64,000 bases of DNA from Candidatus Poribacteria bacterium (lineage in GTDB: Bacteria; Poribacteria; WGA-4E; WGA-3G). The notes beneath the pieces are model-generated. The model did not search any database. It worked only from the letters and a program-made list of their open reading frames with translations, and had not been told where the DNA came from. Position numbers and translations under genes: made by a program. The stretch's first letter is position 1, and every line of letters begins with the position of its first letter. Positions 13,120 through 44,199 of the stretch are shown one piece after another. The stretch is from NCBI GenBank assembly GCA_022820835.1, contig JAJEET010000063.1:1-64000 (forward strand), read 5' to 3'.

Positions 13120-13213
13120 ACCCTCCTTATCCTAACAAACGCTCATTTTTGCAGAATTATGCAACCGTTTCACCCCTAAGTAGCGTCACTATAGGGCAAA
13201 TCGGAGGTGAACC

Positions 13214-16120
13214 ATGAAAAACACGGATATAGCATTAATTCATCGCACGCTCAACGGTGACGATAACGCCTTCGCTGAACTTGTCAAAAAATATCAGAAA
13301 CAGGTTCACGCGCTCGTATGGCGGAAGATTGGAGATTTCCACACCGCTGAGGAAATCACGCAGGATGTATTCTTGAAAGCCTATCAGAGACTGGCAAAGC
13401 TGAAGAAACCGCAAAGTTTTGCGAGTTGGCTGTATGTGATTGCCGCGAATGACTGTAGCACATGGCTTCGCAAAAAGCGTTTGAAAACGCAACCACTTGA
13501 GGCCACAAGCGGCGTGCACCTCGAAAAGGCGACCTACTCTGGATACGTCATTGCGGAAAATGAACGGACATCAGCAGAAGCACAGCGCGATGCTGTTCAA
13601 AAGTTGCTTGCGAAACTGCAAGAGAGTGAGAGAACTGTCATCACGCTCTTCTATTTCGCGGAAATGACCTGCAAAGAGATCAGTGAGTTTTTAGGGGTCT
13701 CCGCGAATACGATTAAGAGTCGTTTGAGTCGTGCACGACACCGCTTAAAGAAGGAGGAACCGATGATTCGAGAGGCGTTAGACCATTTCCAGATCACACC
13801 ACATCTCACAGAGAATATTATGCGTGAGATCGCGCGTATCAAACCGATTGCACCGTCCGGCAATAAACCGTTCATACCGTGGGCAATCGCCGCTTCGACA
13901 ATGATGGCGGTATTGATATTACTTGGTATCGGCAGCTATCAATACGCAATTCGATTTCAGCAACCTTATAGTTTCGATGCTTCATCAGAAATGACAGTTG
14001 ACATTCTTGAGACACCCCTTGTGCTGAACCTTGTGTCAAAACCTGATGCTCGGACACAAATTGAAACTGCGAACGCGGGTAAGGACAAAAATTCTGAACA
14101 GCGATCCAACGAGGCACAAACCCCGGCGGACGAAGCACAAGCGGAGGCATTCATGAAACATTATTCAAAGTGGGAGCTGCCGAGAGCAGCGAAAATGCGT
14201 TTGGGAAAGGGTGGCATTAATGATATGCAGTTTTCACCCGATGGCTCGCAACTCGCTGTCGGTAACGATATGGGTACTTGGCTTTATGACATGAAAACGG
14301 GTAAAGAAATTGCGTTATTCCCAGGGATATGTGAATCTCTTGCGTTTTCACCCGATGGACGCTTTCTTGCAAAGGGCGGGTTTGGTAAGTTGTGGGGCGA
14401 GGAACCCCACTTATGGGAAATAGCGACGCGTAGGAAAGTCCCATTCACCGACGCACCCCGGCCCGCCACAGCGTTACGTTTCTCTGAAGATGGAAAAACG
14501 CTTATCAGTGTGGACAGCTGGGGTGCCACAATTAGTCGATTAGATATTGAAACAGGCGAGAAGGATGTGACAACTCTTGAAGGACAACCTGACTCCTTGG
14601 GACATATTATCGAAGTCTATACGTTTACGCACGATAGCGTTGCAGGCGGAAAAGTAGACGGTAAAATCCGTTTGTGGGACACAACAACGGGTAAAAAATT
14701 AACCACTCTTAACGGACATGCTGTGGAGGATCAGGATCCGTTGCTCGACACACACGTTCTGACTTTGGCTTTTTCGCCTGACGGTACGCAACTTGCCAGT
14801 GGGAGTACGGATACAACGGTACGATTATGGGATACTGTCATCGACAGGGACGAACCGGTTATTCTACGAAAACACACAGGTTGGGTAAACGCGTTAGCAT
14901 TCTCACCAGATGGAAAGATGCTCGCCAGTGGCAGTACTGATAAGACGGTGCAGCTATGGAATACCGCCACTGGAGAACATCTCGCAACGCTTACCGGACA
15001 TCTCAGTGGTATTGCTGCGCTAACGTTTTCACCGGACGGTAGCACGCTTGCAAGTGGGAGTACAGACGGCACGATCCGATTCTGGGATACCGAAACTGGA
15101 GATGAACTGTCAAACCGTATCACTGGACACACACAGTGGGTAAAAGCAGGAACTTTCCTGAAAGATAGTTCCACGTTTGTCAGCGTCGCGTTTAACGGCA
15201 CAATTACCTTTTGGGCTCTGGAGACATCAGAAAAAAACGCCCTCCAGATGGCAGGAGATCGGGATTTGTTACGCTATTTAGCATTTTCGCTGGATGGCAC
15301 AAAACTTGCCAGCGTCGACACAAAAGGCGATATATTCTTTGCGGCAGGTTTCGGGCACTCTATTTCTACACCACCAAGGTCAGACGCGGTAATTCGTATA
15401 ACGGATGTCAAAACCGGACGTGAGCTGACAAAGACGTATGGTGCTGGTCAAAATTTGGCTTTTTCACCTGATAAAAAAAAGGTTGCCTTCGACCATGGAG
15501 TTAGCATTCGCTTATGGGATACGGAAACTGGTAAAACGTTAGAGATTTTCCTTGTAGATCTAACCAATGAAACTGATGTATCATCGGATAATATAATTGC
15601 TGCTTTAACGTTCTCACCGGATGGGAAAAAACTTGCCAGTGGAACCTGGGGAGGAGATCTTCAGATATGGAATTCGGAAACCGGAGAGGCGTTAAACACC
15701 TTCCTTAGAGCAGAGCCTCAGAAAGGTCATCACGGTCGGGATACTATTAGGACTTTGGCGTTCTCTCCGGATGGGGCAATGCTTGCCGTGGGAAGTGACA
15801 CACATATACGCATTCGGTTGTTAGAGGGTGAAAGACAGATCGGCTTTAAGAACGTACGCGGTCAAACCGAGGTATTGGTGTTTTCACCGGATGCCACCGT
15901 ACTTGCCATTGGGCGTAGAAATGGCGGAATTGAATTATGGGATATTACTACCGGGGATCAACTTACCACACTTGAGGGGCACACGGGACCGGTGGAAACA
16001 TTGATCTTTTCTCCCGATGGCAGAACGTTGGTCAGCACGGGGCAAGATGGTACAATTCTGGTCTGGGATTGGGATGAAGCACTCAAAAACACATCAAATG
16101 ATAAAAATATGTTAGAATAA
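13214..16120 (+). CDS. ECF-type RNA polymerase sigma factor fused to one TM helix and a C-terminal WD40-repeat domain
   Basis: Region 2: FAELVKKYQKQVHALVWRKIGDFHTAEEITQDVFLKAYQRL. Region 4: SERTVITLFYFAEMTCKEISEFLGVSANTIKSRLSRARHRL. TM PWAIAASTMMAVLILLGIGSYQYAI, then many FSPDG...LASGSxDxTVxLWD repeats. Confidence 0.93.
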   Translation: MKNTDIALIHRTLNGDDNAFAELVKKYQKQVHALVWRKIGDFHTAEEITQDVFLKAYQRLAKLKKPQSFASWLYVIAANDCSTWLRKKRLKTQPLEATSGVHLEKATYSGYVIAENERTSAEAQRDAVQKLLAKLQESERTVITLFYFAEMTCKEISEFLGVSANTIKSRLSRARHRLKKEEPMIREALDHFQITPHLTENIMREIARIKPIAPSGNKPFIPWAIAASTMMAVLILLGIGSYQYAIRFQQPYSFDASSEMTVDILETPLVLNLVSKPDARTQIETANAGKDKNSEQRSNEAQTPADEAQAEAFMKHYSKWELPRAAKMRLGKGGINDMQFSPDGSQLAVGNDMGTWLYDMKTGKEIALFPGICESLAFSPDGRFLAKGGFGKLWGEEPHLWEIATRRKVPFTDAPRPATALRFSEDGKTLISVDSWGATISRLDIETGEKDVTTLEGQPDSLGHIIEVYTFTHDSVAGGKVDGKIRLWDTTTGKKLTTLNGHAVEDQDPLLDTHVLTLAFSPDGTQLASGSTDTTVRLWDTVIDRDEPVILRKHTGWVNALAFSPDGKMLASGSTDKTVQLWNTATGEHLATLTGHLSGIAALTFSPDGSTLASGSTDGTIRFWDTETGDELSNRITGHTQWVKAGTFLKDSSTFVSVAFNGTITFWALETSEKNALQMAGDRDLLRYLAFSLDGTKLASVDTKGDIFFAAGFGHSISTPPRSDAVIRITDVKTGRELTKTYGAGQNLAFSPDKKKVAFDHGVSIRLWDTETGKTLEIFLVDLTNETDVSSDNIIAALTFSPDGKKLASGTWGGDLQIWNSETGEALNTFLRAEPQKGHHGRDTIRTLAFSPDGAMLAVGSDTHIRIRLLEGERQIGFKNVRGQTEVLVFSPDATVLAIGRRNGGIELWDITTGDQLTTLEGHTGPVETLIFSPDGRTLVSTGQDGTILVWDWDEALKNTSNDKNMLE

Positions 16121-16185
16121 TTCAAAACCGATGAAAGTTTTAGGTTCTTCTCTCCACATTTCTATTTGTTCAAGGAGTATTTTGC

Positions 16186-19143
16186 ATGTTGGGACGTGAA
16201 AAGCAGATCACTATCGTATGTGTCTTATATCTTATAACCTGTCTACTACCATTTGCTGGTGCCCAAACCGACGAAATTGTTGACACCTATCCGCAGTGGG
16301 AATTGCCGAAAGCAGCGAAAATGCGTCTGGGCAAAGGTGCTATTAACGCTATCCAATTTTCACCCGATGGCACCCAAATCGCCGTCGGAACCCAAATCGG
16401 TCTGTGGCTGTACGATGTTAAAACAGGCAACGAAATATCTTTATTCGCGGGGATATGTGAATCCATCGCTTTTTCACCGGACGGTCGTTTCCTTGTCAAT
16501 AGTGGTGGCGATTATTTCTCCAACCTCGGTGGGAGTCGCTGGGAAAACGGGGTAGAAGTATGGGAGATAGCCACCGGTGAGAAAATAGAATTCCGAGATA
16601 TGCCATCCGCTGCCGCAGTGATGCAGTTCTCTCAAGATGGCAAGACACTGATCAGCCTTGATAAATCCAGGGACACAATTAATCGATTAGATATTGAAAC
16701 CGGTAAGCGGACTGTGAGCCAATTAGGAAAGCGTCCCGGTTATGTCCATCTTGAAACCTATGCCCTCACGGAAGATAAAATCGCCATCGGAAATAGAAAC
16801 GGAAACATCGCGTTATGGGATACGAGGAGAAATAAAAAATTATCCACGCTCAGAGAACATGCAGAAAGGATCCGGTTACCGGATCGAGCGATGGCGGACA
16901 ACAGCGTTTTAGCCTTAGCATTTTCACCCGACAGTACCCAACTCGCCAGTGCAAATAGGGGTTCAGTAGAACTATGGGATATGACCAGTGATAACGAACC
17001 GATCACCCTTCAAAAAAGTACCGGTTGGCCAGACCATTATGTATTAGTGTTCTCACCCGATGGGAAAATGCTTGCCAGCGGAAATGAATATGGTACAGTG
17101 CAATTGTGGGATACCGCTACCGGTGAATCGCTCACCACCTTTACAAATCATTTTAGTCTTATTGACGCGTTAGCGTTTTCACCCGATAGCACCACGCTTG
17201 CCAGCGGGAGCACAGATGGCACTATTCAGTTTTGGAATATCAAGACGCGGAATCCGCTACAGAAACGTATCACTGGACATCTATCCTGGCTGAGAGGCGT
17301 AACTTTCTACAAAGACAGTTCTACAATTGCGAGCGTCGCGTATAACGGGATAATTACCCTTTGGGATCTGAAGAAATCCCAAAAAACCACGCTCCAGACC
17401 CAAATGACGCTTGAGAGCACAAGGTATCCGAATTGGTTCCCAGATTTAGCATTTTCGCCAGACGGAACAAAACTCGTCTTCTATGGGAGGGACACGAATT
17501 CATCTGAACCGTGGTTGAGTTATGTGCTGCGGTTGACGGATGTCGGCACCGGACGTGAATTGGAAACTTCACCTCAAAGGGCTTCAGAGCTGACGTTTTC
17601 ACCGGACGGAAAAACCGTAGCTGGGAGGCACTCAGGGGCAGTTCGCTTATGGAACACAGAAACAGGCAAAATTTTTGATATTCCGCTCTCAGATCCGAAC
17701 GATGACCCTGATGGACGGAACCGCCCTTTTATCCGAACCTTGGAATTCTCACCAGATGGTAAAAGACTTGCTGGTGGAACCATGGGCGGAGACGTTCAGA
17801 TGTGGGATACCGAAACCGGGACCACGCTCACTTCCTTCTTTGGGGAAGAACCGCCAACAGACAATCGTCATCGGGATCCCATTATGAATTTGGTATTCTC
17901 CTCGGACGGTTCCTTGCTTGCTGTCGGAAGTATGAAAACGTTACGTTTATTGGGAAATCTGAAACAGATCGGACTTAGAGAAATTTCTTATGGCCCCGAA
18001 GTCTGGGGCGATACATTACTGTTTTCACCAGATGATACCGTCCTTGTTATCGGACTTATACAGAGCTGCGGTATCGAGTTATGGGACCTGGGCACCGGAA
18101 ACAAACTCACAACGCTTAATGGACACACAAATGGTGTGGATGCGTTAGCATTTTCACCCGATGGAAAAACGCTCGTGAGTGCAGGCGGAGAGGGAACAGT
18201 ACTCCTATGGGATTGGGACGAAGTCCTCACGACCGCGCGAAATCCTGAAGCTGGTGAAGTACCCCAAAACACAGAAGCGCGTTCGGAAACAGTGTTGAAA
18301 TTTGTTGAACGCACGGCAGAAAACGAGGCAAACGCACGTTATATCTCAACAGTAGAACACACCTATATCGAAAACAGGTGGAAAAATGCATTCGCGCAAT
18401 TCAAAAGCGACTTGGAGACAACAACGTTTGGAAGCTCTCAACGTCAACTGATCGCACAGATTGCTGAAATGGGCAAAAGTGCCAACGACAAAAAGCGTTA
18501 TATTGATATGTTAAACAAGTTGATGGATGCCATACCTAACAAACTGAGTGTGCAATTAAACATTCATCTCTTGCTGGCGGCGTTCTATCGCGACAACGAT
18601 ATGCTTGAGAAGGCCGAAACGCATATTCAAAAAACTGGCTTCATCATTGAGAACGCCTGGCAGGTACTCACACCATTTGACAATACGCATGGCATCGGTT
18701 ATAAGACGGCATATATTCCTGAAGATGCAACACAGATTGACACAACAGAAACATACAACGGTTTAGATGAACAGGTCCGTTGGAAAAAAAGCGAAGACAA
18801 TACGCTCAACGGCTATATCAGTCTCGGAGACAACGTTGACTGGGGTGTCGGCTACGCATTCGCAACCGTTACTTCACCCGATGCACGCGAAGTCCTACTC
18901 AAATTCGATAGCGACGACCAAGGGAAAGTATGGCTTAATGGGGAACAAGTATTTACACACACGAAATCCTTCTCCGCAGAAATTGATAAATACACGATTC
19001 CAACAACGCTCAAGCCCGGTAAAAACAGCATTCTCGTCAAAGTATGTGAGGAAGAAGGCGGCTGGGGATTCTATTTCCGAATTACCGACACAAATGGCAG
19101 ACCTTTTGAAGACCTGAAAATTAACGACCCCATAGAAAATTAA
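16186..19143 (+). CDS. Secreted WD40-repeat protein with C-terminal galactose-binding-like module
   Basis: Signal peptide ITIVCVLYLITCLLPFAGAQ; WD40 region closely similar to 13214..16120 (YPQWELPKAAKMRLGKGAIN); C-terminal FDSDDQGKVWLNGEQVF...GGWGFYFRITD. Confidence 0.9.
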   Translation: MLGREKQITIVCVLYLITCLLPFAGAQTDEIVDTYPQWELPKAAKMRLGKGAINAIQFSPDGTQIAVGTQIGLWLYDVKTGNEISLFAGICESIAFSPDGRFLVNSGGDYFSNLGGSRWENGVEVWEIATGEKIEFRDMPSAAAVMQFSQDGKTLISLDKSRDTINRLDIETGKRTVSQLGKRPGYVHLETYALTEDKIAIGNRNGNIALWDTRRNKKLSTLREHAERIRLPDRAMADNSVLALAFSPDSTQLASANRGSVELWDMTSDNEPITLQKSTGWPDHYVLVFSPDGKMLASGNEYGTVQLWDTATGESLTTFTNHFSLIDALAFSPDSTTLASGSTDGTIQFWNIKTRNPLQKRITGHLSWLRGVTFYKDSSTIASVAYNGIITLWDLKKSQKTTLQTQMTLESTRYPNWFPDLAFSPDGTKLVFYGRDTNSSEPWLSYVLRLTDVGTGRELETSPQRASELTFSPDGKTVAGRHSGAVRLWNTETGKIFDIPLSDPNDDPDGRNRPFIRTLEFSPDGKRLAGGTMGGDVQMWDTETGTTLTSFFGEEPPTDNRHRDPIMNLVFSSDGSLLAVGSMKTLRLLGNLKQIGLREISYGPEVWGDTLLFSPDDTVLVIGLIQSCGIELWDLGTGNKLTTLNGHTNGVDALAFSPDGKTLVSAGGEGTVLLWDWDEVLTTARNPEAGEVPQNTEARSETVLKFVERTAENEANARYISTVEHTYIENRWKNAFAQFKSDLETTTFGSSQRQLIAQIAEMGKSANDKKRYIDMLNKLMDAIPNKLSVQLNIHLLLAAFYRDNDMLEKAETHIQKTGFIIENAWQVLTPFDNTHGIGYKTAYIPEDATQIDTTETYNGLDEQVRWKKSEDNTLNGYISLGDNVDWGVGYAFATVTSPDAREVLLKFDSDDQGKVWLNGEQVFTHTKSFSAEIDKYTIPTTLKPGKNSILVKVCEEEGGWGFYFRITDTNGRPFEDLKINDPIEN

Positions 19144-19312
19144 CAAAAATACCCCATCAGCATGATAGCCTGACAACTGAAAATACCAATAATTTCCTTG
19201 ATTTTTCGCTTTATATTATGTTACACTCAAAATGTGTTATGGTTTGTATCTACAATAGTTTGCTTAAGTTTATCGGGTAATGCCGCGCGTTTATTCTAAG
19301 GAGATCCCTTGT

Positions 19313-22300
19313 ATGCTTAAACGAGAAAAATTCCAAATTGTTGCGTCCCTTCTGTGTCTGATATTCTTCACCTTTTCTCTTTCACCACTGCTGCTTGCAC
19401 AAAACGAAACGAACGACGCAAAAATCATTGAACGCTATAGACTTATGCTGAGCCGTAAACCGAAAGAGGGGAGCACATTCGACCGGCTCTATCAGTTTTA
19501 TCTTGAAGGTGCCGGTTTAGACGCAATGGTTACGGATTATCAGGCGGAAGCAGAAGCGAATCCCAATAATCCAAACGTGCAGCTCATCTTGGGACACATC
19601 CACAAACGCCTCGGCAAAGACGCTGAGGCTGTCAAAGCATATCAGCGGGCGGTCGAACTGGCACCCAATAATTACTATTCTCACTTTGCCCTCGGACAGG
19701 CGTACGCAACTTTGCTTCAACATGAAAACGCCATCAGCGCGTTGAAACAGGCAGCAGCACTTGCAGAAGAGACGCAGGTTGCCGCGACTCCTGAAGACCT
19801 TACCGCTATCTACAAAGCACTCGGTAGAGCATACTTCCGACGAGACCGTGTTGATGACGCAATCTCAGCATGGGCAAAAATTGCCGAACTTGACCCGGAG
19901 AATATCTTTACACGCATTGAACTCGCTGACCTACTCCGAGAGCAGGAACTCTATGAACAAGCAATCGCACAACACGAGGCGATCATTGAATTCAAAGCGG
20001 ATGATCCGTATCGCGTGTGCCTGAGTCGGCGCGAAATCGGCAATATCCATGAGGCAAAAGGCGATTACGGAGCCGCTATTCAAAGCTACGATTCTGCACT
20101 GGCATTGACAGCACCCGGCAACTGGCTCCGCAAGGACCTCCAACACCGCGTTATCGGGATTTATGCTGCAGATGGAAACTGGGAAGGCTTAATCGAGTAC
20201 TATCAAAAGAAACTCGAAACCACACCGAACGAACCTGAACGCCTTGGATTACTCGCCACCGCTTACATTGAAAATCAGCAGCTAGCTGAAGGCATCGCAA
20301 CATATCAGAAGGCAGTAGGGCTTGCCCCGACCGATGCGAACCTACGTTTGAGCCTCATCGCAGCGTTTCGCAATGCCGAAAAATTTGAGGATGCTGCAGC
20401 AGCTTATGAATCTTTAAGTGAACAAGATCCTGACAATTTCGGCATCTACCGCGAACTCGGTGAATTGTATCTACATTTACAAGACGAGAGTAAAGCACGA
20501 GCAACGTATCAGCGGATGATTGACCGCGACTCGGAGAACGCGGGTACACACCTTATTCTCGCTGAAATCTACGCCAGCAACGAATGGATGGATGATGCCG
20601 CTGCGGCATATCAACAGGCGATTTCGCTTGCACCGAACAACCTTGATTATATTGAATACTTCGGTGAATTCTACTTCCGACAAGGCAATCGTGAGAAAGC
20701 ACTTCAGACATGGAACAAAATGGTCGCTGGCGACAAGGAAGTTGCTGAGAATTATGAACGGTTGGCGAAACTGCTTAATACAAAGAACTACCGCACCGAA
20801 GCAATCGCCACAAGTCGGAAGGCTGTCGAATTAATGCCTGATGTCTATCGTTATCGTGAAGCATTGGCAAAACTGCTTACGGAAAACGGGGACTACGATG
20901 CGGCACTAATCGAATATACAGAAGCCACAAAACTTGCACCAAACCCGTTTTTTGCTGAAGAGATGGATAACCAGCGGATTGAACTCTATCGACGACAGGG
21001 GACACTCATTGAAAAAATTGAAGCGTTAGAAACGGAACTTGAGAATTCCGAACTTCCCGCTACCGATAGTTTCGCGAAGCAGAAACGGCTTGCCAAGATG
21101 TATCTCAAACTCGGCAACATTACTTACGCCCTTGAAGTCCTTCTGAAGGCGAAAGCACAGCAACCCAATGATGTGGTTATCAACCGCTGGCTCGCCGAGG
21201 TTTACGTCAGGCAAGGCAGGCGCGATGATGCGAATGCTGTCTATGGACATCTCATTGAAATTGATAGCGCGAATGCCCGCGAATATTATGAAAACATCGC
21301 GCGTTCCTATCTGAAAGTGATGGACTTTAATGCAGCGACAGCAGCAGCGAAGCAAGCGATCGCACGCAGTCCACGCAATCCAGAAGGCCATCAGATGCTC
21401 GCGGAAATCGCGAAGCAGTCTGGAAACTATGAGAGTGCCATAGACAGCCTCAAACAGGCACTGCGTCTGCGCCCGGAAGCGATTGATATTCGCTCCGAAT
21501 TGGCGGCGACCTACAAACTCGCAGGTAAACCCCGACAGGCACTGGCACAGTACTGGCGATGCTGGGAGTTGAGCGGTACCGTCAGCGACAAACTCGTTTT
21601 CGTTAAACCGCTTTCCGAGGCGTACTATGATTTGGGACGGCGTGGAGAATTTGAGGAAAAGCTGAAGCAGCTCTCGAAATCTAACACATCCAACGTCGCT
21701 CCGGTTATCGCACTTACCGAACTCTATCGGATGGAGGGTGACCTACCAAGCGCACGTTTCCAACTCGCACGCGCATTGGACAAAGAACGAGAGAACCCTG
21801 ATTTGCTGACACAAATCGTCAATATCAGTATAGACCTTGGCAATACACAAGACGCAATCACTTATCAGCAACGACTTGTGAAAGCACACCCCGACCCGAT
21901 CCATTATCAACAACTCGGTAAATTATTATTTGATGTTGGACGTGAACAGGAAGCGGTTCAAGTCTGGACGAAACTACTTCACGCAAAGAACCAAACACTT
22001 GAAGCAGAAGTTAAACTCGCGACACTACTGATCCGAAACGGAATGCTCGATGAAGCGATTTCTGTCCTAGATCGCGCAGCTGAAAAGATAGCAGGCACAG
22101 ATGCTGCTGCTACACTCTACCAACTCGGGGCAGTATTGGTGGGAATGAACGAACCAGAACGCGCACAACCTTACTTCCAACGTATCTTGGAACTCCCACA
22201 ACCCCGTCAGTTAACACAGGATACCGCCGAAATTAATACCAACAAATTTGAAATATCTCGGAGTCGTGTCGGAGATATTCAGAGGAGACCAACGTTTGCA

Positions 22301-25300
22301 GCGAGGGGCATGCCGTGGATACCCAAGACCTTTGCGGACGCGCGAGCCGCAGCACTCGTTCAGCTGACGACGTACGCACAACAACACGGGAAACTGAGCG
22401 AACTCATCCGACAGTTTGAAGCAGATACCGAAGCAAATCCAACGGACATCAACGCACTTGAGACCTTAGTACAACTCTACACGCTCGTCCAACACCACGA
22501 CAAGGCAGATCAAGTGATTGAACGGTTGATTGACGCTTCACCCAACGATCCAACCTATCAGCCGTTGCTGCTAGAGCGTACACTTCAAGAAAACCTTAGT
22601 TATGAAACGCTAAAAAAATCCCTTGACGATATGCACGGTTTGAGCCATGAGGCGCGACTCCGGTATATCGCGGAATACGCCGCACAACTTTATCGTCAAA
22701 GGAAACGCGGCGATGCCAGAAAACTTATGAACGAACTTGAAGATGTCCAAGTCACAGACCTCGACACCGGAATTGTGTTGGTCAATACGCTTGTACTTAT
22801 GAATAAAACCGACGCAGCGGAGAAAATTATCGCACAACTCGCGAAACCTACACCCAAGCAGCTCTCACAATACATCCAATCCTACAGAAGACTCACGACG
22901 GACTACATCCGTGACGGACACATTGACAGAGCTGTCGCCCTGCTCTGGACTTTCTGTGAGCGGACGAAACCGGATGCTGCACATCCGCGGCGCGTCGCAA
23001 CACTTGCACAAGCATCTCAGTCCTACTACAGTGGACACACACCCCTTCAGTCAAGTTATCCATCCCCGACGGTGTACTACAATCAAACACGTTTGGAACA
23101 TCTACAGTGGGGCTTCCGGGAACTCTGGATACGAAATCAACAGGAAACATTATACGCCAAGCTGCAGACTGAGTTAGATACTGCGAAAGATAGAGACCGC
23201 ATCTATCCGAGTTTGGCACTCAGTTACTGCTATTGGTGGGACGAGAAACGTACGGAGGCACAAACAACCCTTTCTGAACTGCAAGCAGAATTTCCTGACG
23301 ATCTCACACTCAAACTCATCACCACCTTTGTTTCTATTCAGACGGGGAACCATAAATCAGCATTAACAATGCTCAAATCGCTCGCTGAAACCGATCCGAG
23401 GAACCGTCGTCAGTATAACGAACTCACGCTCGAACTTGCTTTACACACAGGCGACACCGTCACGGTACGTGAACTGGTCACAAAACTTCTGAATTCACCC
23501 ACAACAGCCCTGGAACTCTATCATTTTTCGCAAAAACTTCAAGAGGCTGGACTCACACAATACGCTGTTGCCACCGCGAAAAGAGCGATACCACTGGCAA
23601 TGGGACAGCAGACACCAAACTTCCTCATGGAATTAAGTGGACATTTGGAAAGACTCGGGCGCGGACAGGACGCAGCACAACTCGCTGAACGCGCCCTGCA
23701 GGCTGCGAATCGACCGGACCGCTACGGACGGACATTATACTCCTGGAATTTACAGCGAGCCACACACCTCACGAGCCGCTCAAAAAACCTACGCTCGCGT
23801 GAATCCGAGTTAGTTAAAGCGACTGAAAATAATCCGAATTCATTTCAAGCATACCTCAAACTCGCGACATTCTATGAGAGTGCCAATCAAATTGAAAAGG
23901 CATCAGAGGCTTTTAAGGCAGCACTCAACTTGCGCCCTAATGACAGCATGACCCGCTTACGATACGTCCAAATGCTCCAGAGAAGTGGAAAAGTAGGAGA
24001 AGCCGTACCCCATTACACCATACTTCTCAAAGATAACTCAAGTTCACTCGGATACGGCTATCGAGAGGCAATAGATGCCTTCTTCCAAACGGATAAGGCT
24101 GACGAACTCATTGCCCTCGCGAAGGACTTGATTCTGCCTGTTGGACAATATGCCGGTAACGATTTTACGCACAAAGTCGCACAGCGGTGTTTGAGTGATA
24201 ACAGACCCGAAGCAGCCATCGAAATATTTGAAAAGATTATTCAGGTACATCCAGATTGGGACTACGTCTATAGAGAATTAGCAGACGCTTATGTTGCAAC
24301 AGGCCACCATGAAAAGGCGATTCGGTTCTTACAAGAGAGTCAAGACGCTGATAAAATAGGGCTTTCCAATACAGAATTTACCCTAAAACTCGCTGGATTC
24401 CATGAGGCATCCGGCGGACCTGAAGCTGCAATTCAGTTCCTCCGTGAAAAATTGGAAGGCAGCGACATATCTGATTCAAAAGCACCGTTTGTCCTGAAAC
24501 TCGCCGAGCTCTGTAAGGCATCCGACACACTATCAGACTTAATTACGGAATATGAGGCAAAACTTGCTGAAGAACCCGAAGATGCAACCCTCCTCTATCT
24601 CATTGCCAGCATGAAGCTCGAAGCAGATGACAGTGAAGGCGCGGACGCGCACGTAGATCAGTTGTTGGATAATGCGCTCACGTCAACATCTACCCAATGG
24701 TTATACAGACTCGCTGAGAGATACGAAAACTTAGGGAATCATGATTTTCAACTTCGAATACTTGAAGCCGCCGTTGAAAAACTTAAAAGCGTGAATTCAT
24801 GGTCACTTTCAGAAGCTTACCAGAAACTCGGAACGGCGTATGCAAAAATAAATGAGAAACAGAAGGCACAAGACGCTTTTCGGAAGATGGGCACGATCCA
24901 ACTGATGCAGAAACGCCGAAGAACCTTCTATGATATAAGGGACCTCGCTACGACATACATGCAACACAAGATGTGGGACGATGCTGAAGCACTCTTTACC
25001 GGGATCATCAACGATGTTTCAACAAGATCCTATGATCGTGAACAAGCACAAGAACGGTTGATGCAGATTGAAAAGCAGCGCAGTCGTCTTGAAACGACAA
25101 CCCAGCTAACTGAAAAAACACAGGGGCTGAATGTCGGTGTTCAGCGCGCGTTCGCAAAAGAATATATAGATCGTGGTGAAATCAGGCAAGCGATGGAAAT
25201 TTACGAGCAGATCGTGAAAGCGGTACCTGAGGACCTCGAATCCCGCGCCCAACTCGCAAGCCTTTATTCACAACAAAATCTACACGATAGCGCAATTGGG

Positions 25301-28858: not shown

Positions 28859-28917
28859 CAACGAACAATCAGCAGGCACATTCACTGTCTATTGCCTAAG
28901 CTTAAGGAGATATGTTC

Positions 28918-31900: not shown

Positions 31901-34692
31901 CTCAGATTCTAAGGTCACCATTTAGTAGAAGAAGTGGACCGCGATGGACACCCGCAAATTTTGAAGAGGCACAAGCCGGGGCACTCGTCCAATTGACAGC
32001 AATCGCGGAAAAGAAAGGGAACCTGAGCAGATTCATTAGCCAATTTGAGGCGAAGGTTAACGCGAATCCACAGGATACCCAGACGCTTGAACTGTTAGCA
32101 CAACTCTACACACTGACCGATAACACCGATAAAACAAGAGAAATTACCGAGCAGCTGCTTGACACTTCGCCGAATGATCCAGCATATCAAGCCGTCCGGT
32201 TACACCAGACTATGCAGCACAACCTTAATTATAAAACATTCAAAAAACATCTCGATGAAGCGACCGGGCTGCCGCCTGAAGCACGGCACCAGTATATCAT
32301 ACAATACACTGAGAAACTTTATCGTCGTGGAGAAAACGCAGATGCCGAAAAATTGTTGGACGAACTCGAAGGTGACCAAGTACTTAATCTCAGCACCGGC
32401 GTTATGTTGGTTGATGTCCTTGTCTTAATGGGCAAGATGGACGAAGCAGAGAAAATTATCACCCAATTTCCGATCCCGATTGCTTCAGCAGCACCTGCGA
32501 CCCCCCAGCAACAGCGACAATACGTTACGGTCTATCAAACTCTAGCGGACGCTTACCTTCGTCAGGGGAAAATTGAGAAAGCGACTACGTTCTTCTGGAA
32601 CTTTTTGGAACACACTAAGCCGAACACCGCAAACCCGCGACGCGTCGCAAAACTTGAATATGCTGCGCCTTCCTACATAGGCTATACCTCAATTCAGTTA
32701 ACCTATCCCTCGCCGACGATATACTACAATCAAGATCGGTTGCAGTATCTGCAGCAGGTTTTTAATCAATTTTTGTTGAAAAATCAACAAAAATCACTGT
32801 ACGCCAAATTGCAGGCTGAGTTTAATTCGACAGAAGGCAGAGAGCGTATCTACCCGGGGTTAGCATTGAGCTACTGTTATTGGTGGGATGGCCAGCGGGA
32901 TAAGGCACAAAAGACACTCTCCGCGTTGCAAGAGGAATTCTCGGATGATCTTACACTTAAAATTAACACTTTCTTTGCCTCAATCCAAACTGGGCAACAC
33001 GAAACAGCACTGGCACTGCTTGAAGAACTCATTGAAGTAGAACCGAGGAACCGTCGTCAATATTATGACCTGATGCTACAAGTTGCTATGCGCACAGGTG
33101 ACAGGAGCAGCGTGCGTGAATTGGTAACAAAACTGCTGAACTCACCGAGCAAAGTTCGAGAGTTTCATCAGTTTTCCGAAAAACTCCATGATGCCGGTTT
33201 TAAACAGCACGCTGTTGCTGTTGCCAAGAAAACGGTAGACCTTGCGATGGGTGAGCGCGACCCGAATTTTCTCATGGACTTGAGCCAACATTTAGAACGA
33301 CTTGGACAAGTACAGGATGCTGAATCCATCGCGGAACGCGCGTTGCGTTTCGCTAACCAACGCGACCGGTCCGGACAGACGCTCTATTCTTGGAATTTTC
33401 GGAGCGCAACGCGGTTAGTGGGACGCTCCACAAACGCACCCGACCGCGAGCGAAAACTTGTGGCAGCTGTACAAAAGAATCCAGAAGCACACCATGCCCA
33501 TCTCAAGTTGGCAATTTTCTACGAAAGCACCGATCAACCCGAAAAAGCATCGGAGGCATTTAAGGCTCTACTTGCTCTAAGACCTAAGGACAGCATGACC
33601 CGATACCGCTACGCCCAGATGTTACAGAGGACCGGACAGGAAAAAGATGCTGTTGACCAGTATATGGTGCTTCTCAAGGACAATCCAAATGTCCTTGGCT
33701 ACGACTATTTCGAGGTAATAGGTACTTTCATCCAAACGGAAAGAATTGATGAACTCGTTTCACTCACCAAAGAGATGATGGTTCCATCTGTGGGACAAAA
33801 TTTCGGGCGACAATTCGCGCGTAGTGTAGCACAGATGTGTGTCCGAGGGGGCAGCCCTAAAGCGGCAGTCGAAATCTATGAGAAATTTGTTGAAGTTTAT
33901 CCAAACCAGACCGGCACGTATCAAAACCTTGCATCCGCTTATATCGCCGCTGGAGAACGTGAGAACGCAATCCAACTTTTGCGCGGAAGGTTGGCAACTG
34001 GAAACATCGCGTCTCAAGTAGAGACTGTCCTAAAGCTCGTTGAACTCTACAAGGCTTCCGATGAATTAGAAAACTTGACAGCGGAATACACAGCAAAACT
34101 TGCTGAGAAGCCAGCAGATCCGGCACTGCTCTATCTCGTCGCTTCAATGAAGGTCGCAGCAAATAACCTCGAAGAAGCGAAACCGCTGATTAATCAACTC
34201 CTTAAAGTCCTACCTACTGCACGGAAACTATCCTGGCTGAACAGACTCGCGTTAGAATACCGGATCGCAGGGGACCGGGACTGGGAACTCCGTCTACTTG
34301 AAGCCGCTGTTGAGGATGTTTATCCGAAGACTTCCAGCATACTTTTGGAGACTTATCGGAGACTTGCTATGGCATACGTCCACAAAGGCGAAAAAGAGAA
34401 GGGACAGAACACCCTTCGCAAGATGGGGGCTCTCCGCCTTTCGCAACGCAGCGTACGCTATCTCGAGCTCGAGAAAGAGGAAATTGCAAAGATATATGTT
34501 CAACACGACATGTTAGAAGATGCCGAACTCTTGCTTAGCGATCTTCTTAACGATTTTTCAGTACAACCGTGGACTCGGAGGCAAGCAGAGCAACAACTAA
34601 AGAAGATTAAACGACGACGTACCTTTTTGGAGTTGAAGAGGCGAGTGACTTCAAAAATGAAAACTACGCCCCGCAAGTCAACTGTCGAATAG
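28918..34692 (+). CDS. Giant secreted TPR-repeat protein (copy 2, lacks the C-terminal third)
   Basis: Same N-terminus as copies 1 and 3 (KIIERYKQMLNRKPKEG..FDRLYQFYLEGNGLDAMVADYQAEA). Start 28918 chosen by alignment with the GTG at 34720. Confidence 0.9.
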   Translation: MFGRKNYRIPLFVLSFIVCALCIPSITFTQEVTDDTKIIERYKQMLNRKPKEGRTFDRLYQFYLEGNGLDAMVADYQAEAATKPDAPNIQIILGHIYKRLGKDTEAIDAYQRAITLSPNDYYSHFALGHQHTTLRQYEQAINALTKAAALSEQTASATPDDRTLIYKTLGRAYFHQDRVDDAIATWKKIAESDTQNIFARIELADLFHEQELYPQAIAQHEAITEIKKDDPYRVCLSLREIGKIHEDMGDYEAARTRYDTALALTAPGNWLRKDLQHRIIGIYAADANWKGLIDYYQGKLQVTPNDPELIGLLASAYIENQQLDEGIAAYRNGLELAPTDADLRLNLIAALRSAEQLEDAAAEYEVLSEQQPDDFGIYRELGKLYLQLKNEDKAKASYQRMTNRDPENASTYLILAEIYTGHEWIEDAVASYQKAISLAPINLDYIEYFGEFYFRQGNREKALETWNLMVAPDKAVAENYDRLARLLNKRNFHTEAIAASRKAVELMPGVYRYREALAKRLMENKDYAAALIEYTEAEKLAPNPFFAEEMDNQRIEIYRRQGTLGDHIEAMEVELNKPGLSDADIFAKHKRLAKMYLKSKNITYALAVLLKARSLRPDDVPVNRWLAELYVKQGRRDDAKATYIHLTDIDSANAREYYTGIARIHLNTMNLDAAKTAAKQIVAHSPRNPDGHQMFAEIAKHAEDYDTAIVSLKQAIRLRPEAIGIRSELANIYKISGKPRQALAQYWRCWELSNSVSDKLAFVKPLSEVYYDLGQRNAFEEKLKQLSKTNASSIVPVLALAEIYRMEGDLPNARFQLVQALDRERENPELLAQLVKISLDLGDNQGALAYQQRLVKAQPDPRHQQKLGELLFDAGREQEAIQAWTKLLHTKNQTLETELEFLTLLIRHELLDEALFTIERAAENAQDAKAIYQLGAVLVEMNEVERAQPYFQRILEMPIPARNVTKNITIDPNQTTSGTPRLNTNEFHLARSLVPQILRSPFSRRSGPRWTPANFEEAQAGALVQLTAIAEKKGNLSRFISQFEAKVNANPQDTQTLELLAQLYTLTDNTDKTREITEQLLDTSPNDPAYQAVRLHQTMQHNLNYKTFKKHLDEATGLPPEARHQYIIQYTEKLYRRGENADAEKLLDELEGDQVLNLSTGVMLVDVLVLMGKMDEAEKIITQFPIPIASAAPATPQQQRQYVTVYQTLADAYLRQGKIEKATTFFWNFLEHTKPNTANPRRVAKLEYAAPSYIGYTSIQLTYPSPTIYYNQDRLQYLQQVFNQFLLKNQQKSLYAKLQAEFNSTEGRERIYPGLALSYCYWWDGQRDKAQKTLSALQEEFSDDLTLKINTFFASIQTGQHETALALLEELIEVEPRNRRQYYDLMLQVAMRTGDRSSVRELVTKLLNSPSKVREFHQFSEKLHDAGFKQHAVAVAKKTVDLAMGERDPNFLMDLSQHLERLGQVQDAESIAERALRFANQRDRSGQTLYSWNFRSATRLVGRSTNAPDRERKLVAAVQKNPEAHHAHLKLAIFYESTDQPEKASEAFKALLALRPKDSMTRYRYAQMLQRTGQEKDAVDQYMVLLKDNPNVLGYDYFEVIGTFIQTERIDELVSLTKEMMVPSVGQNFGRQFARSVAQMCVRGGSPKAAVEIYEKFVEVYPNQTGTYQNLASAYIAAGERENAIQLLRGRLATGNIASQVETVLKLVELYKASDELENLTAEYTAKLAEKPADPALLYLVASMKVAANNLEEAKPLINQLLKVLPTARKLSWLNRLALEYRIAGDRDWELRLLEAAVEDVYPKTSSILLETYRRLAMAYVHKGEKEKGQNTLRKMGALRLSQRSVRYLELEKEEIAKIYVQHDMLEDAELLLSDLLNDFSVQPWTRRQAEQQLKKIKRRRTFLELKRRVTSKMKTTPRKSTVE

Positions 34693-34719
34693 CGCGAATC
34701 AAACAAAGGAGATATTTTC

Positions 34720-40700: not shown

Positions 40701-43419
40701 TGGTAAAATTGACAAAGCATTGGAACTCTCGCAGCAATACATTAAAACGGATGCTAATAATAGTGTTAATTACGTACGCCTCGCAAAACTCTATGCGGAT
40801 GATGACCGGATTGATGAAGCGATCGCTGCCTATCAAAAATCAATTGAACTGGCTCCTGGTAACGTGAAACATCATCTCGAATTGGCTGCGCTGTATATCC
40901 GTAAAGATGATAAAGTTTCTGCGGAGACGGCTTTCCAAGAAGCAAAACGTTACACTGTTCAAGAATGGGAACGCCATGATATTGAACAAGAAATTATGAA
41001 ACTTTCTGAAGCGCAGGAAAGTTTTGAAGGAGGGATGCAGAAGGCGGAAGCGGAAGGTACGCTTACGTTTGAAATGCAGAAAGAACACGCGGAAACTTTT
41101 CGGGATGACGGCAAACATGAAGAGGCAAGCATCGCTTATGAAAAAGCACTTGAGATGACTACAGATAGCTACCAACGCCGAAGAATCTATGAAAATTTGC
41201 TTGATATTTACCCCAAACTCGATAAGCACGACGCTGCCCTCGAAATGCATGACGAGCTTGCATTTATTCCGTATATAGGCAATGCTGCTGAGTTGGCACA
41301 CAATAGATTGATGAACGCATACAAAAGGGAAAATAAACTCGATGTCCTGAAATCGATCTATAAGACGAAACTTGAGAACGATTCCCATAATATTAATTAT
41401 CTCGAAATGCTCGCTGAGATTTACAAGCGCACAAACACCCACGGTAAGGCTGCTGAAGCGTATCAAGTCATCAGCAAACTACAACCCGATAATGCCCTGA
41501 GTTACTACAACGCCGCTGCAGCATATAATAGAAATGGACAATCCGAATTAGCGAAAGAGATGTTAAACCGCGGTGAAAGTGTCCTTTCTGTCAGCCCTCA
41601 AAAGCGAAGTGGTTCTCTCCTTGAAACGCTTGGTGAAATCTGTTACGATGGGAAAATGTACGACTTAGCAATTAAATTCGCTGATTCTGCAATCGCTGAA
41701 AGTACAGGTACCAGAGTATACGGCATAGCTTCACCTGTAGAAGCTGAATATGAACTTCTTGCGAAAAGTTTACTTGCCGCGAAACGGTATGAAGAAGCCG
41801 TCCATGCCTACCAGCAAGTGGAAAACATGGCAAGATATCCAGGGGAGGGAGACGAAGCCAGAAAAGCGATAGAAAGTGCATTAAGATTGGGGAACCTGTA
41901 TGAAAAGCAGATACCTAAACTGTTGGAGAAGGTAGAGGAAAATCGTGATGACCCAGAGGCACGTTTGACCCTTGCCGAAACCTACGAAAAAGCCGACAAG
42001 ATTGAAGAAGCAATCGGGCAATACGAAAAGATGAGTCAACTCCAACCTGATAATTGGCAGTGGTACAAGAAACTTGGTGATCTCTATCAGAAACAATCCC
42101 AACGTCATCAGACACCTGAGCAATTGGCACAAGCGGCAGCAGCGTATGAATCAGCACTTCAGTTTGAACCGAATTCTTATGAATTGTATCGTTCACTGGC
42201 AGAAACCTATACGAAAGATGGCCGTTCATCAGAGGCAGAGGCTGTGTATCGCCGGGCATTGGACGCGCCCCTTACGCAGAACCAACAAGATGACGCTATT
42301 AAAACCATCTGGGCATTTTATGCCAACAAGGCACATGAAAACAAAGGCATTGCTATCCTTGAAGAACTCAGGCAAAAAATGGAAAATAGCACAGTCCTGC
42401 ATGAACTGTTAGGAGATGTGTATAAAAAAGTTGGAGATACTGAGAAAGCCGAAAACGCATACACACAGTGGATTGCGATCCGACAGCGGCAGCTAAACCA
42501 GCGCGGTTCGGCAGGAAGTTATCAGGATTTTGCAGAAAAACTCCTCCAAAAAGAGATTTCACCCGAAACAGCCATAAAATTTGCCAAACGCGCAGTTCAA
42601 ATTAGCAATAATTCGGATGACATCTTAACCTTAGGATATGCCTACCTCGTCAATGGACAGTATGACATAGCAGTTGAACAGTTCAAAAAAGGACTGTTGA
42701 CCCTGACATCCCGGACTTTTCAACGTAAATTCTTCTCATGGATTTCCGAATACGGCAAAAAAACTGAAGATAAGGAGGGTTACGTTGATATGTTAAACGA
42801 ACTGGTAAACACTGTATCCGATAACGTGGTCATCCAGCTTAATCTCAGTCTCACGTTGGCGGAATTCTGTTTCAATAATAACATGCCGGAGAAGGCAAAA
42901 GCATATATTCAAAAAACGGGTTTCATCGCTGAAAACGCCTGGTGGACGCTCGGTCCTTTTGATAACACCGATGGCAGCGGGTACAATACGACTTATATCC
43001 CCGAAGACACAACGCAGATCGACACAGCCACAAAATACGAAGGTATAGATGGACAGGTCCGTTGGCAAAAAAGTGACGACAGGACACTGGACGGTTATAT
43101 CGGTCTCGGGAGGGATATTGACTGGGGGGTCGCTTATGCATTCGCAACCGTTGTTTCACCCGATGAGAGAAAAGTTCAACTCCGATTTGATAGCGACGAC
43201 CAAGGGAAAGTCTGGCTTAATGGTGAAGAGGTGTTTGCCAATACCGGATCCCATAGTGCCACAATTGACCGTTATACGATTCCTGTGACACTCAAGTCCG
43301 GCGAAAACAGCATCCTCGTCAAGGTTTGTGAAGAGGAAGAAGGTTGGGGGTTCTATCTGCGGATCACAGACACAGACGGAAAACCGTTTAATGATTTAAA
43401 AATCGGTGGTTCGGATTGA
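34720..43419 (+). CDS. Giant secreted TPR-repeat protein with C-terminal galactose-binding-like module (copy 3)
   Basis: RBS AAAGGAGA then GTG start; signal peptide; TPR units; C-terminal FDSDDQGKVWLNGEEVF...GWGFYLRITDTDGKPF. Confidence 0.9.
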   Translation: MFRREKCVISVCIVYFIAYILCFTSITLAQDETDDAKIIERYKQMLNRKPKEGSTFDRLYQFYLEGNGLDAMVADYQAEAAATPDAPNLQLILGHIYKRLGKDADAVKAYQRAVELAPNNYYSYFALGQAYAILLQHENAISALNRAAKIAEETQTATPEDLTATYKALGSAYFQRDRVDEAITAWTKIAELDPENIFTRIELADLLREQELYEQAIAQHEAIIQFKAEDPYRVCLSRREIGNIHEAKGDYGTAIKSYDSALTLTAPGNWLRKDLQHRIIGIYAADGNWEGLIEYYQKKLQKTPNEPEILGLLAAAYIENQQLDESITTYQKAVELAPTDANLRLNLISAFRNAEKFEDAAAAYESLSEQDPDDFGIYRELGELYLHLQDEDKARATYQRMIDRDPENAGTHLILAEIYASNEWMEDAEAAYQSALSLAPNNLDYIEYFGEFYFRQGDREKAIETWNLMVAGDKAVAENYDRLAQLLDTKNYRAEAIAASRKATELMPDVYRYREALAKRLMKNKDYDAALTEYTEAAKVAPNAFFAEEMDNQRIELYRRQGTLVEKIEAVEAELETSGLPATDIFAQQKRLAKMYLKLGNITYALEVLLKAKAHQPDDVVINRWLAEVYTKQNRRDDANAVYRHLITIDSANTREYYTNIARAHLNVMDFDAATETSKQVIAHSPRNPEGHQMLAEIAKQAGNYESAIDSLKQALRLRPEAIDIRSELAATYKLAGKPRQALAQYWRCWELSGTVNDKLGFVKPLSEVYYDLGRRGEFEEKLKQLSKSNTSSVGPVIALAELYRMEGDLPSARFQLARALDRERENSDLLIQLVSISVDLGDNQDALTYQQRLVKVQPDPSHQRRLGELLFDAGREQEAIQAWTKLLHAKNQTLEAEVKLAMLLIRHGLLDEALFVLDRAAKKITGNPDAHLARYQLGGVLVRMNEFDRARTHFQRILDMPKPPENVTKHPNAGNRNTSSGTPGINTNKFDLARSLLYRIQDQSYYSRNVQGWIPNNFDEAQAGALVHLVTIAQQHGELNAFIQQYETALEENPKDIKPLEILAQIYTLTEHPEKTAAVLERLIAVSPNDTVYQAIRFKAAIQRDLASETIKKYLSNITGLTGEARLWYTLQYIQKRYRDGDKTEAEKLMREFENTKVMELNTVEALVETLVLMEKTDAAAQIIADLSIPTQSQQSQYRDLYRIVTDAYMRQEHIDKAIDLFWTYCERTQPQITNTRRGVSHPLRFASSSSSSIQAIFPTSTTYYSGSRLGYLRSFSRRLWLKNQQEALYSKLQATVDAVEGRDRIFAGLALSYCYWWNGDREKARETLVSLQAQFPRDLALKLSTVFSSIQTGHYAGTLKLLDELSVSDPRNRRQYYDLTLQLALQSGNTVAVRDLIVKLLNSPSGARELYTFSQQLQTAGYTQHAATIMNKAMHLAMAVRDPNFLMELSRHLEDLGRGQDSVLIAERALRFANQRDRYGRTMSSRNLQQATHLTSHSKSRKDQETQLIDAVEKNPTSYRAFMNLAAFYEGTNKFDKASTAYQRLLTIRPTDSGTRKRFADMLYANGKYEAAIPQYTKLLKDNPTILGYATSDVIETFFKAKKVDELITLSKEMITPSIGRDLNNELARDVARELMDKNNPKAAISIYEKLIEAQPSRTGYYRSLASAYAATGEHEKAIQILRNTLKTEESSSQEATIGMLTRFYKLYGGLDAFIKESEAKLSEKPTDNNLRYLLAAMKIAANDLEGADRLAFQLLNEDAFKTRHNTRQLHNLADAYRLAGVREREFQILERIVQVQNQQSYVDWVPYHRLGMIYALKGEIGKAQDAYRKMGRLRLRYRNDFVELMNVGATYLHNQMWDEAEPLLTEIANDLSVRSYFRREAEERLVAIKKRRDNISNTTQLKEKIKTMDIKTLRTLAKDFVRRGDRQQAVLIYTHLEKVMPEDFESRAQLATLYAIQNQQDNAVATWEALLAEDPGNTRFQDGLVRTYQSAGKIDKALELSQQYIKTDANNSVNYVRLAKLYADDDRIDEAIAAYQKSIELAPGNVKHHLELAALYIRKDDKVSAETAFQEAKRYTVQEWERHDIEQEIMKLSEAQESFEGGMQKAEAEGTLTFEMQKEHAETFRDDGKHEEASIAYEKALEMTTDSYQRRRIYENLLDIYPKLDKHDAALEMHDELAFIPYIGNAAELAHNRLMNAYKRENKLDVLKSIYKTKLENDSHNINYLEMLAEIYKRTNTHGKAAEAYQVISKLQPDNALSYYNAAAAYNRNGQSELAKEMLNRGESVLSVSPQKRSGSLLETLGEICYDGKMYDLAIKFADSAIAESTGTRVYGIASPVEAEYELLAKSLLAAKRYEEAVHAYQQVENMARYPGEGDEARKAIESALRLGNLYEKQIPKLLEKVEENRDDPEARLTLAETYEKADKIEEAIGQYEKMSQLQPDNWQWYKKLGDLYQKQSQRHQTPEQLAQAAAAYESALQFEPNSYELYRSLAETYTKDGRSSEAEAVYRRALDAPLTQNQQDDAIKTIWAFYANKAHENKGIAILEELRQKMENSTVLHELLGDVYKKVGDTEKAENAYTQWIAIRQRQLNQRGSAGSYQDFAEKLLQKEISPETAIKFAKRAVQISNNSDDILTLGYAYLVNGQYDIAVEQFKKGLLTLTSRTFQRKFFSWISEYGKKTEDKEGYVDMLNELVNTVSDNVVIQLNLSLTLAEFCFNNNMPEKAKAYIQKTGFIAENAWWTLGPFDNTDGSGYNTTYIPEDTTQIDTATKYEGIDGQVRWQKSDDRTLDGYIGLGRDIDWGVAYAFATVVSPDERKVQLRFDSDDQGKVWLNGEEVFANTGSHSATIDRYTIPVTLKSGENSILVKVCEEEEGWGFYLRITDTDGKPFNDLKIGGSD

Positions 43420-43506
43420 AATATTCGACAGCACAGCAAAATAATGCACCCTTTTTCACCGTAATATGCGTCACTATAAGTAACGCCATAAATTTATAAT
43501 AAAGTT

Positions 43507-43669
43507 TATAGTAAATTCCAAAAATAAATACACACTTTCAACCCCTCGGTAGGTGCGGTTTTGCGGCGTACTCGCCTGCCCCCCTGATAAGGGGGGATAA
43601 AGGGGGGTTGCGACCTGCATTCCAACCGCACCGATGCTAAGTGTATAAGTAATTACAGGATCTACTATA
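43507..43669 (+). repeat. MITE-like element, family B copy 2 (TATAGTAAATTCC...GGATCTACTATA)
   Basis: About 31-bp imperfect TIRs with TATAGT ends; internal GGTGCGGTT/AACCGCACC palindrome and CCCCCC/GGGGGG runs. Confidence 0.7.
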
Positions 43670-43700
43670 AAATAAATTGAACTCTGTACCCAGGGGGATT

Positions 43701-43954
43701 TATAGTAAAGTTTAGAATTAAAGAAACATTTCAAGTCCTAAACAGACCGTAATACGAGCCCTGAGTCGCCGCAAACGCAAATCGGAAAATATAACGTAGA
43801 TTTTTGCGTACAAAAAAAATTAAAGTGTCCTTAAGACAAAAATCACAGCAGCCGAACGCGTCTTTCTATCGCGCGCCGAAGCCGTTACCAAGAAGATAGG
43901 AGACCGTTAGTTTCCTTGGCACAGGATGTCTCATTAATTATGGGATCCACTATA
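43701..43954 (+). repeat. MITE-like element, family A copy 1
   Basis: TATAGTAAAGTTTAGAATTAAAG...CTCATTAATTATGGGATCCACTATA; near-identical to 50755..50997. Confidence 0.8.
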
Positions 43955-44000
43955 GTTTTACATTTTCACTCATTCGATATATCTATATTCTCCACTGTAG

Positions 44001-44017
44001 GAGCGAGCTGTGCTCGC
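44001..44017. repeat. REP-like hairpin in GTAGGAGCGAGCTGTGCTCGCGAT
   Basis: GCGAGC-tgt-GCTCGC stem in noncoding DNA. Confidence 0.45.
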
Positions 44018-44105
44018 GATATTGTGTCCGGACGTTAACACCTATCAACCGAAATCAAGATTGGAACCGAAAACTAAATCGCCCTGGCTCTGTACCAGCA
44101 ATGTT

Positions 44106-44134
44106 TTGACATATAGAAAAATTTATGCTATAAT
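44106..44134 (+). promoter_or_regulatory. Consensus sigma70 promoter TTGACA-N17-TATAAT
   Basis: Exact -35 and -10 hexamers with 17-bp spacing, 65 bp upstream of ATG 44200. Confidence 0.8.
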
Positions 44135-44199
44135 TGATAGTAAACACTTTGGAACCATTTAAATCGCAATTCGGGTACTTTACAAAAGGAGCTCATTTC

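Follow-up and report, generated by a model that had tools for sequence, protein, structure and literature searches.

Predicted transmembrane ECF sigma factors of Poribacteria with putative sensor modules shared with neighbouring secreted proteins

The sigma-I/RsgI systems of cellulolytic clostridia consist of sets of paralogous sigma factors whose sensors carry modules of the kind found in exported proteins, and whose promoters are autoregulated and have overlapping specificities (PMC6056542); nine RsgI sensors are cut within the transmembrane (TM) segment by RseP (PMC12203970). In ECF48, ECF52, ECF53 and IutY (ECF243), sigma factor, TM segment and extracytoplasmic domain form a single protein, for which proteolytic activation has been shown or is presumed, and in ECF57 the ECF sigma factor has WD40-like repeats in a C-terminal extension, with a cysteine link between sigma2 and sigma4 as the proposed mode of activation (PMC8999054). 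An earlier note on the DNA analysed here knew of no described system of its composition; taken singly, one-piece sigma–TM proteins and WD40-extended ECF factors are already described kinds (PMC8999054). How ECF factors with C-terminal extensions work is an open question in the field (PMC8103513). Our literature search, which covered open-licence papers, found none joining Poribacteria with WD40 sigma factors or extracytoplasmic function. To our knowledge, single-polypeptide sigma–TM–sensor proteins have so far come to light just as scattered examples. Here we describe a poribacterial gene, g1, whose product we think rather likely to carry out transmembrane sigma signalling in one piece, working like clostridial sigma-I/RsgI.

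The window, by which we mean the whole 64,000-nucleotide stretch analysed, comes from Candidatus Poribacteria and contains five co-directional genes: g1 for an ECF sigma–TM–WD40 protein, g2 for a predicted secreted WD40 protein, and g3–g5 for predicted secreted TPR giants. Genes for BacA, a glycosyltransferase, GcpE and an aminotransferase form the upstream flank.

13214-16120, plus strand: g1 (ORF list), 968 aa, with ECF sigma domain (aa 1-195), predicted cytoplasmic linker, TM segment (aa 221-239), stalk (to ~aa 310) and WD40 ectodomain (aa 311-960)
13874..13930, plus strand: TM segment of g1, predicted by hydropathy
16186-19143, plus strand: g2, secreted WD40 protein, 985 aa, with signal peptide, propeller (aa 31-690) and predicted C-terminal jelly-roll module, CMOD (aa 808-985)
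19280-28858, plus strand: g3, giant secreted TPR protein as listed (3192 aa), likely start 19313 (3181 aa)
~26864-27379, plus strand: Laminin_G_3 domain of g3
~28316-28855, plus strand: CMOD of g3
28912-34692, plus strand: g4, giant secreted TPR protein without CMOD, likely start 28918, 1924 aa
34720-43419, plus strand: g5, giant secreted TPR protein, 2899 aa, GTG start
~42886-43404, plus strand: CMOD of g5

The ORF list confirmed five consecutive plus-strand genes with short gaps, which agreed with those first reported and measured 65, ~169, 59 and 27 bp when starts supported by a ribosome-binding site (RBS) were used; for g3, the RBS and the alignment of orthologs favoured 19313 over 19280. 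The N-terminal part of g1 was recognized as an ECF (group 4) sigma factor by profile (TIGR02937, aa 19-181, 103.7 bits against a cut-off of 42.9), hydropathy predicted its single TM segment, and Pfam WD40 matched a region of ~650 aa (E 4e-73) that probably folds as two 7-bladed propellers. Of the AlphaFold models that had been proposed as a check, that of the CMOD was good, but that of full-length g1, which contained ~14 blades of strands, had low confidence overall and was too poor to keep as a guide to topology or domain packing.

The module sharing on which the earlier note was built held up throughout and far exceeds chance. The propellers of g1 and g2 are 52% identical over ~650 aa, g3–g5 have a common signal peptide and TPR arrays that are ~60% identical, and the C-terminal modules of g2, g3 and g5 are 65–68% identical over ~177 aa. 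Foldseek searches with the AF2 model of the CMOD (pLDDT 89) returned flocculin, PA14 and GH2 sugar-binding domains at E-values of 3e-5 to 5e-4 but with TM-scores of 0.3–0.48; one match was a clostridial anti-sigma ectodomain (6qdi), and the Pfam match to Glyco_hydro_2_N fell below the cut-off. The predicted fold is in keeping with the suggestion of a sugar-binding-like module, and that the CMOD may bind sugar is, from the model, a reasonable guess. The CMOD also has relatives, single or in tandem, elsewhere among the exported proteins of Poribacteria, for instance on DUF1553-like and LRR proteins (L112-L101 series, L105, L113).

Absent from the earlier note was the large family to which g1 belongs. 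As the header we took residues 1–300 of g1, comprising sigma, linker, TM and stalk. The source genome has ~50 header paralogs, often in tandem, and Sigma70_r2 and r4 were detected in paralogs. In 35–37 of them hydropathy placed a TM segment at the same position, followed by a conserved juxtamembrane stretch, and the C-terminal cargos include WD40, BNR/sortilin-like and Kelch propellers, trypsin plus TPR, transglutaminase and M16 domains. The header is not always a receptor, because ~11 copies have no TM segment, and some of these carry propellers or LRRs, alongside such cargos as DnaN, an M61 peptidase and unidentified domains. Four complete Poribacteria chromosomes have 56, 31, 16 and 13 copies of the TM-containing header, and a header is present in 75 of the 85 Poribacteria genomes; copy numbers, which reach at least 28 per genome in the survey, drop off beyond the family, and all 59 loci found by an exact-peptide scan, which reached beyond the phylum, belonged to Poribacteria MAGs.

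Two arrangements within the header family are worth recording for their own sake. Ten header genes lie in tandem within 39 kb of contig C107 (L114, L115; G000:C107, 1-39089), with WD40 and BNR-type ectodomains mixed. A TM-less member (L138:5959-7695, minus strand; G000:C51) continues in frame into an entire DnaN sliding clamp (DNA polymerase III beta). At least 30 Poribacteria genomes encode such fusions in full length and similar size, 58–90% identical, beside separate DnaN genes, and the ECF motif described below lies upstream of the fusion gene. The arrangement recalls the clamp-coupled late transcription of phage T4.

We then compared the locus across genomes that were mostly MAGs (kinship labels are group codes). 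The recurrent synteny whose absence was to have counted against a functional array is present: flanks and gene order are kept in at least eight Poribacteria species, among them one with a 6.66-Mb single-contig closed-type chromosome (L011/G086). Across species the sigma domains of g1 are 82–100% identical and three flanking proteins 87–93% identical, while the ectodomains at the g1 locus fall into four classes that are 75–91% identical within and 49–58% identical between classes: A (the window and L009), B (G086, G059 and G053), C, which has the CMOD (G076, G052 and L018), and D (G075). In three species g1 itself ends in a CMOD and is 1243–1258 aa long. Class did not follow sigma similarity, as illustrated by G075 and L018, which are 96% identical in sigma and 56% in ectodomain, and G059, G075 and G053 come together in the tree of the flanks but not in that of the propellers (AU p 6e-11).

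Nucleotide comparison placed the junctions between classes. For class A versus C (the window and G076), the junction is where the TM segment begins, at aa 220/221, identity being 97% before it and 75% after; class D departs from class C at the same point (88 to 73%), third positions falling in both cases, and the B-versus-C junction lies in or after the stalk. At the TM breakpoint third-position identity drops from 90 to 55%, which points to replacement by recombination rather than to amino-acid selection alone. The class A propeller of the window clusters in the tree with one free WD40 gene from G075 (82% identical) and the class B propeller with a second, and the signal peptides of both free genes are intact. 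Because two classes thus correspond to free signal-peptide WD40 genes in another species, ectodomains move between tethered and secreted forms. Tethered and free propellers are interleaved in the tree, and AU tests on groups set by gene position, not taken from the tree, rejected both a clade of free propellers (p 1e-56) and a single clade of all g1-locus propellers (p 1e-52). Together, the classes, trees and breakpoints bear out the proposed exchange of modules between a membrane sigma factor and exported proteins.

That chimeric metagenome joins, in assembly or binning, created the fusions and classes seems to us extremely improbable: many headers in the window's own MAG do stop at contig edges and L009 does lack the TPR and MoxR block, but the same order with a class B ectodomain occurs in the single-contig chromosome and in independent assemblies, and every class but D was found in independent genomes. 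More room exists for a sponge-facing role of the propeller and TPR proteins in symbiosis, in which the classes would reflect diversifying selection by the host or by competitors and free propellers would compete with tethered ones as decoys or carriers. WD40 and TPR proteins abound in Poribacteria, which live as symbionts of sponges (PMC3909097), and both the discrete classes at one locus and the presence of the same propeller in free and tethered forms would suit such a role, which we nevertheless judge unlikely to be the explanation, given that some species have no free copies.

Two further features of the relatives deserve mention. In L009, whose g1 is the nearest relative of ours (15740-22652), g3–g5 and the MoxR operon are missing and g2 is followed by what in the window comes after the operon, an arrangement that may reflect a deletion or an assembly join. 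In G086, G052 and G053 (L153, L039, L167) a small duplicated gene (MPKKQIAASYKNFHV..., 160–325 aa) lies between g1 and g2 and has its own ECF-type site upstream.

Returning to one-piece sigma signalling by g1, we looked for promoters through which it might act. Ahead of the g1 orthologs a single block is conserved, TTATGCAACC-N16-GCGTCACTA, which precedes the RBS, and the same layout is found in front of many header paralogs. The window has two candidate promoters of this kind.

13160..13191, plus strand: candidate promoter P1, TGCAACC-N16-GCGTCACTA, 22 bp upstream of the g1 start
43445..43476, plus strand: candidate promoter P2, TGCACCC-N16-GCGTCACTA, between g5 and the MoxR operon

P1 has a PWM score of 27 and a footprint in 8 species; P2 matches the strict pattern and has a footprint in 5. 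The strict pattern had 12 matches in the 5.4-Mb genome, compared with 0 for a reversed control, and 23 compared with 1 in the largest complete chromosome. With a motif matrix built from genome-wide strict matches, a score of at least 14 was reached upstream of 24 out of 45 header genes, but upstream of just 6 out of 280 other ORFs and in 0.4% of shuffles, an enrichment that is partly circular because the pattern was first spotted by inspecting header genes. The interval between P2 and the MoxR operon (43500-44130 in the window) is 650 bp long with repeat-like stretches, and measures 114–219 bp in G076, G075 and G052.

Downstream of P2 lies the second feature that the earlier note did not include, a MoxR operon that belongs with the TPR genes.

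44134..45675, plus strand: membrane/coiled protein with no Pfam match, first gene of the MoxR operon, likely start 44200
45730-46713, plus strand: MoxR AAA ATPase (Pfam, synteny)
46710-47603, plus strand: DUF58 protein (Pfam, synteny)
47637-49685, plus strand: BatA/VWA protein (Pfam, synteny)
49827-50753, plus strand: membrane protein
51087-53663, plus strand: VWA/GATase-like protein (Pfam, synteny)

In Bat aerotolerance operons, periplasmic TPR proteins are encoded together with MoxR, DUF58 and BatA/VWA. The co-occurrence of MoxR, DUF58 and BatA/VWA in one operon marks this one as a Bat/MoxR-VWA operon (Bat proteins are treated in PMC3557215). A bpMoxR ternary conflict system (PMC7159879), raised by a weak match of MoxR to PF20030, was rejected since the gene content is that of a DUF58/BatA operon.

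The N terminus of the giant TPR proteins is present in 39 of the 85 Poribacteria genomes, including other families of the order. In six genomes (G088, G085, G033, G071, G017 and G051) a giant TPR gene stands directly ahead of the 44134, MoxR, DUF58 and BatA/VWA genes, and in G020 it is accompanied by part of the operon; no sigma header was found within the stretches read at these seven loci, in all of which the 44134 gene is co-conserved with the TPR giant and MoxR. The g5 protein is of the TPR type that accompanies the MoxR operon elsewhere without a sigma gene. Because the TPR–MoxR linkage exists without sigma, we regard the array as a composite of an older TPR–MoxR locus and a sigma-WD40/WD40-CMOD pair, and the same loci rule out the sigma factor and TPR scaffolds as one obligate system. 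The proposal that the sigma factor regulates the exported scaffolds is thereby divided: the conserved ECF-type promoter motifs favour it, whereas the idea of one dedicated system falls.

Alternatively, the neighbourhood could contain no dedicated circuit at all, g1 and g2 having landed beside an old TPR–MoxR–BatA locus and an RpoE-like sigma driving both halves of the composite; a general envelope-stress sigma would then use TGCA(A/C)C...GCGTCA, with tethered sigma genes as targets of its regulon and not its drivers. Besides the TPR–MoxR linkage without sigma across several genera, the wider distribution of the motif lends weight to this account. The genome also encodes an RpoE-like ECF factor, whose gene has the motif ahead of it in two species (L193:1660-2307; L196), and P1 and P2 may therefore respond to a different sigma. 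The motif also precedes a second MoxR–DUF58 operon, a gene for a periplasmic protein, STAS genes, an ABC transporter gene and a secreted WD40 gene (L192, L198, L193, L196, L194, L200, L195, L204), several of these loci being conserved between two species. Judged by these targets, the motif seems to mark a general class of ECF promoters for envelope genes. In four sigma-less loci (G088, G085, G071, G076b) sites lie 102–326 bp upstream of giant TPR genes, and because motif totals in such loci were not above the reversed control, this position is the only informative signal there. We nonetheless find the absence of a dedicated circuit doubtful, since the order of the g1 unit has been kept in at least eight species despite repeated replacement of the ectodomain, and about half of the header genes have the motif, with its usual spacing to the ATG, as autoregulated ECF genes would.

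One-piece signalling by g1, which we prefer, could proceed as follows. The ECF sigma domain would lie inside the cell, joined by the conserved linker to the single TM segment, and the stalk and exchangeable ectodomain would lie outside, a topology suggested by hydropathy and by exchange with signal-peptide proteins. The ectodomain would probably sense an extracytoplasmic ligand or partner, and a cut at the membrane would release the sigma domain, which could then drive the ECF-type promoter of its own operon (sigma, secreted WD40 and secreted TPR proteins) as well as those of related envelope operons, the giant TPR–MoxR–BatA operon among them. The genome encodes an M50 site-2-type protease, but this is uninformative because M50 genes are near universal, the search being positive in every control genome as well. 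Recombination at the same locus exchanges WD40 propellers, some of them carrying the PA14-like CMOD, between the sigma gene and secreted-WD40 genes; such swaps would therefore change sensor specificity while keeping the sigma output. From the swapped putative sensor at the g1 site it would seem that the cell is able to alter the inputs of its gene switches. We put forward only tentatively, as a possibility with the odds against it, the broader view that a repertoire of one-piece sigma receptors, exchanging ectodomains with neighbouring secreted proteins and sharing an ECF promoter output, provides combinatorial surface sensing in the sponge, with specificity that diversifies and an output that stays fixed.

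Poribacteria thus offer dozens of predicted one-piece sigma–TM–sensor proteins per genome, with natural swaps of the ectodomain on a near-constant sigma, and with these natural chimeras it becomes possible to test how the sigma is released, which ligands are bound and how far promoters cross-talk. They would also assign a definite regulatory function to part of the wealth of WD40 and TPR proteins for which sponge symbionts are known, and the promoter motif provides a handle for reading regulons in an uncultured phylum.

How does the locus compare with the known systems? As in sigma-I/RsgI, sigma paralogs are many and the sensor modules (WD40, CMOD) are common to exported proteins, and the CMOD model has a Foldseek match in the PA14-type ectodomain of the clostridial RsgI-like protein 6qdi. 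The poribacterial sigma factor, however, is of the ECF type and itself a predicted membrane protein in an operon without a separate anti-sigma gene, which led us to reject membership in sigma-I/RsgI, and its ectodomains are mostly beta-propellers, swapped with secreted proteins of the same locus. The giant TPR proteins differ from those of Bat operons in their length (1900–3200 aa) and in their CMOD and LamG domains. ECF57 shares the WD40 C-terminal extension with the WD40 subset of header paralogs, the others carrying other cargos, but among 48 header paralogs C81 is present in 44, C153 in 14 and both in just 12, so that the cysteine pair, although present in g1, does not characterize the family, in which the TM segment and an exported-type ectodomain are central. 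With IutY and ECF52 the family has in common a TM segment within the sigma polypeptide, predicted by hydropathy in 35–37 header paralogs. ECF48, ECF52, ECF53 and IutY have a zinc-finger anti-sigma or FecR-like part and occur in small numbers per genome, whereas the poribacterial headers number ~50 and carry large, exchangeable ectodomains.
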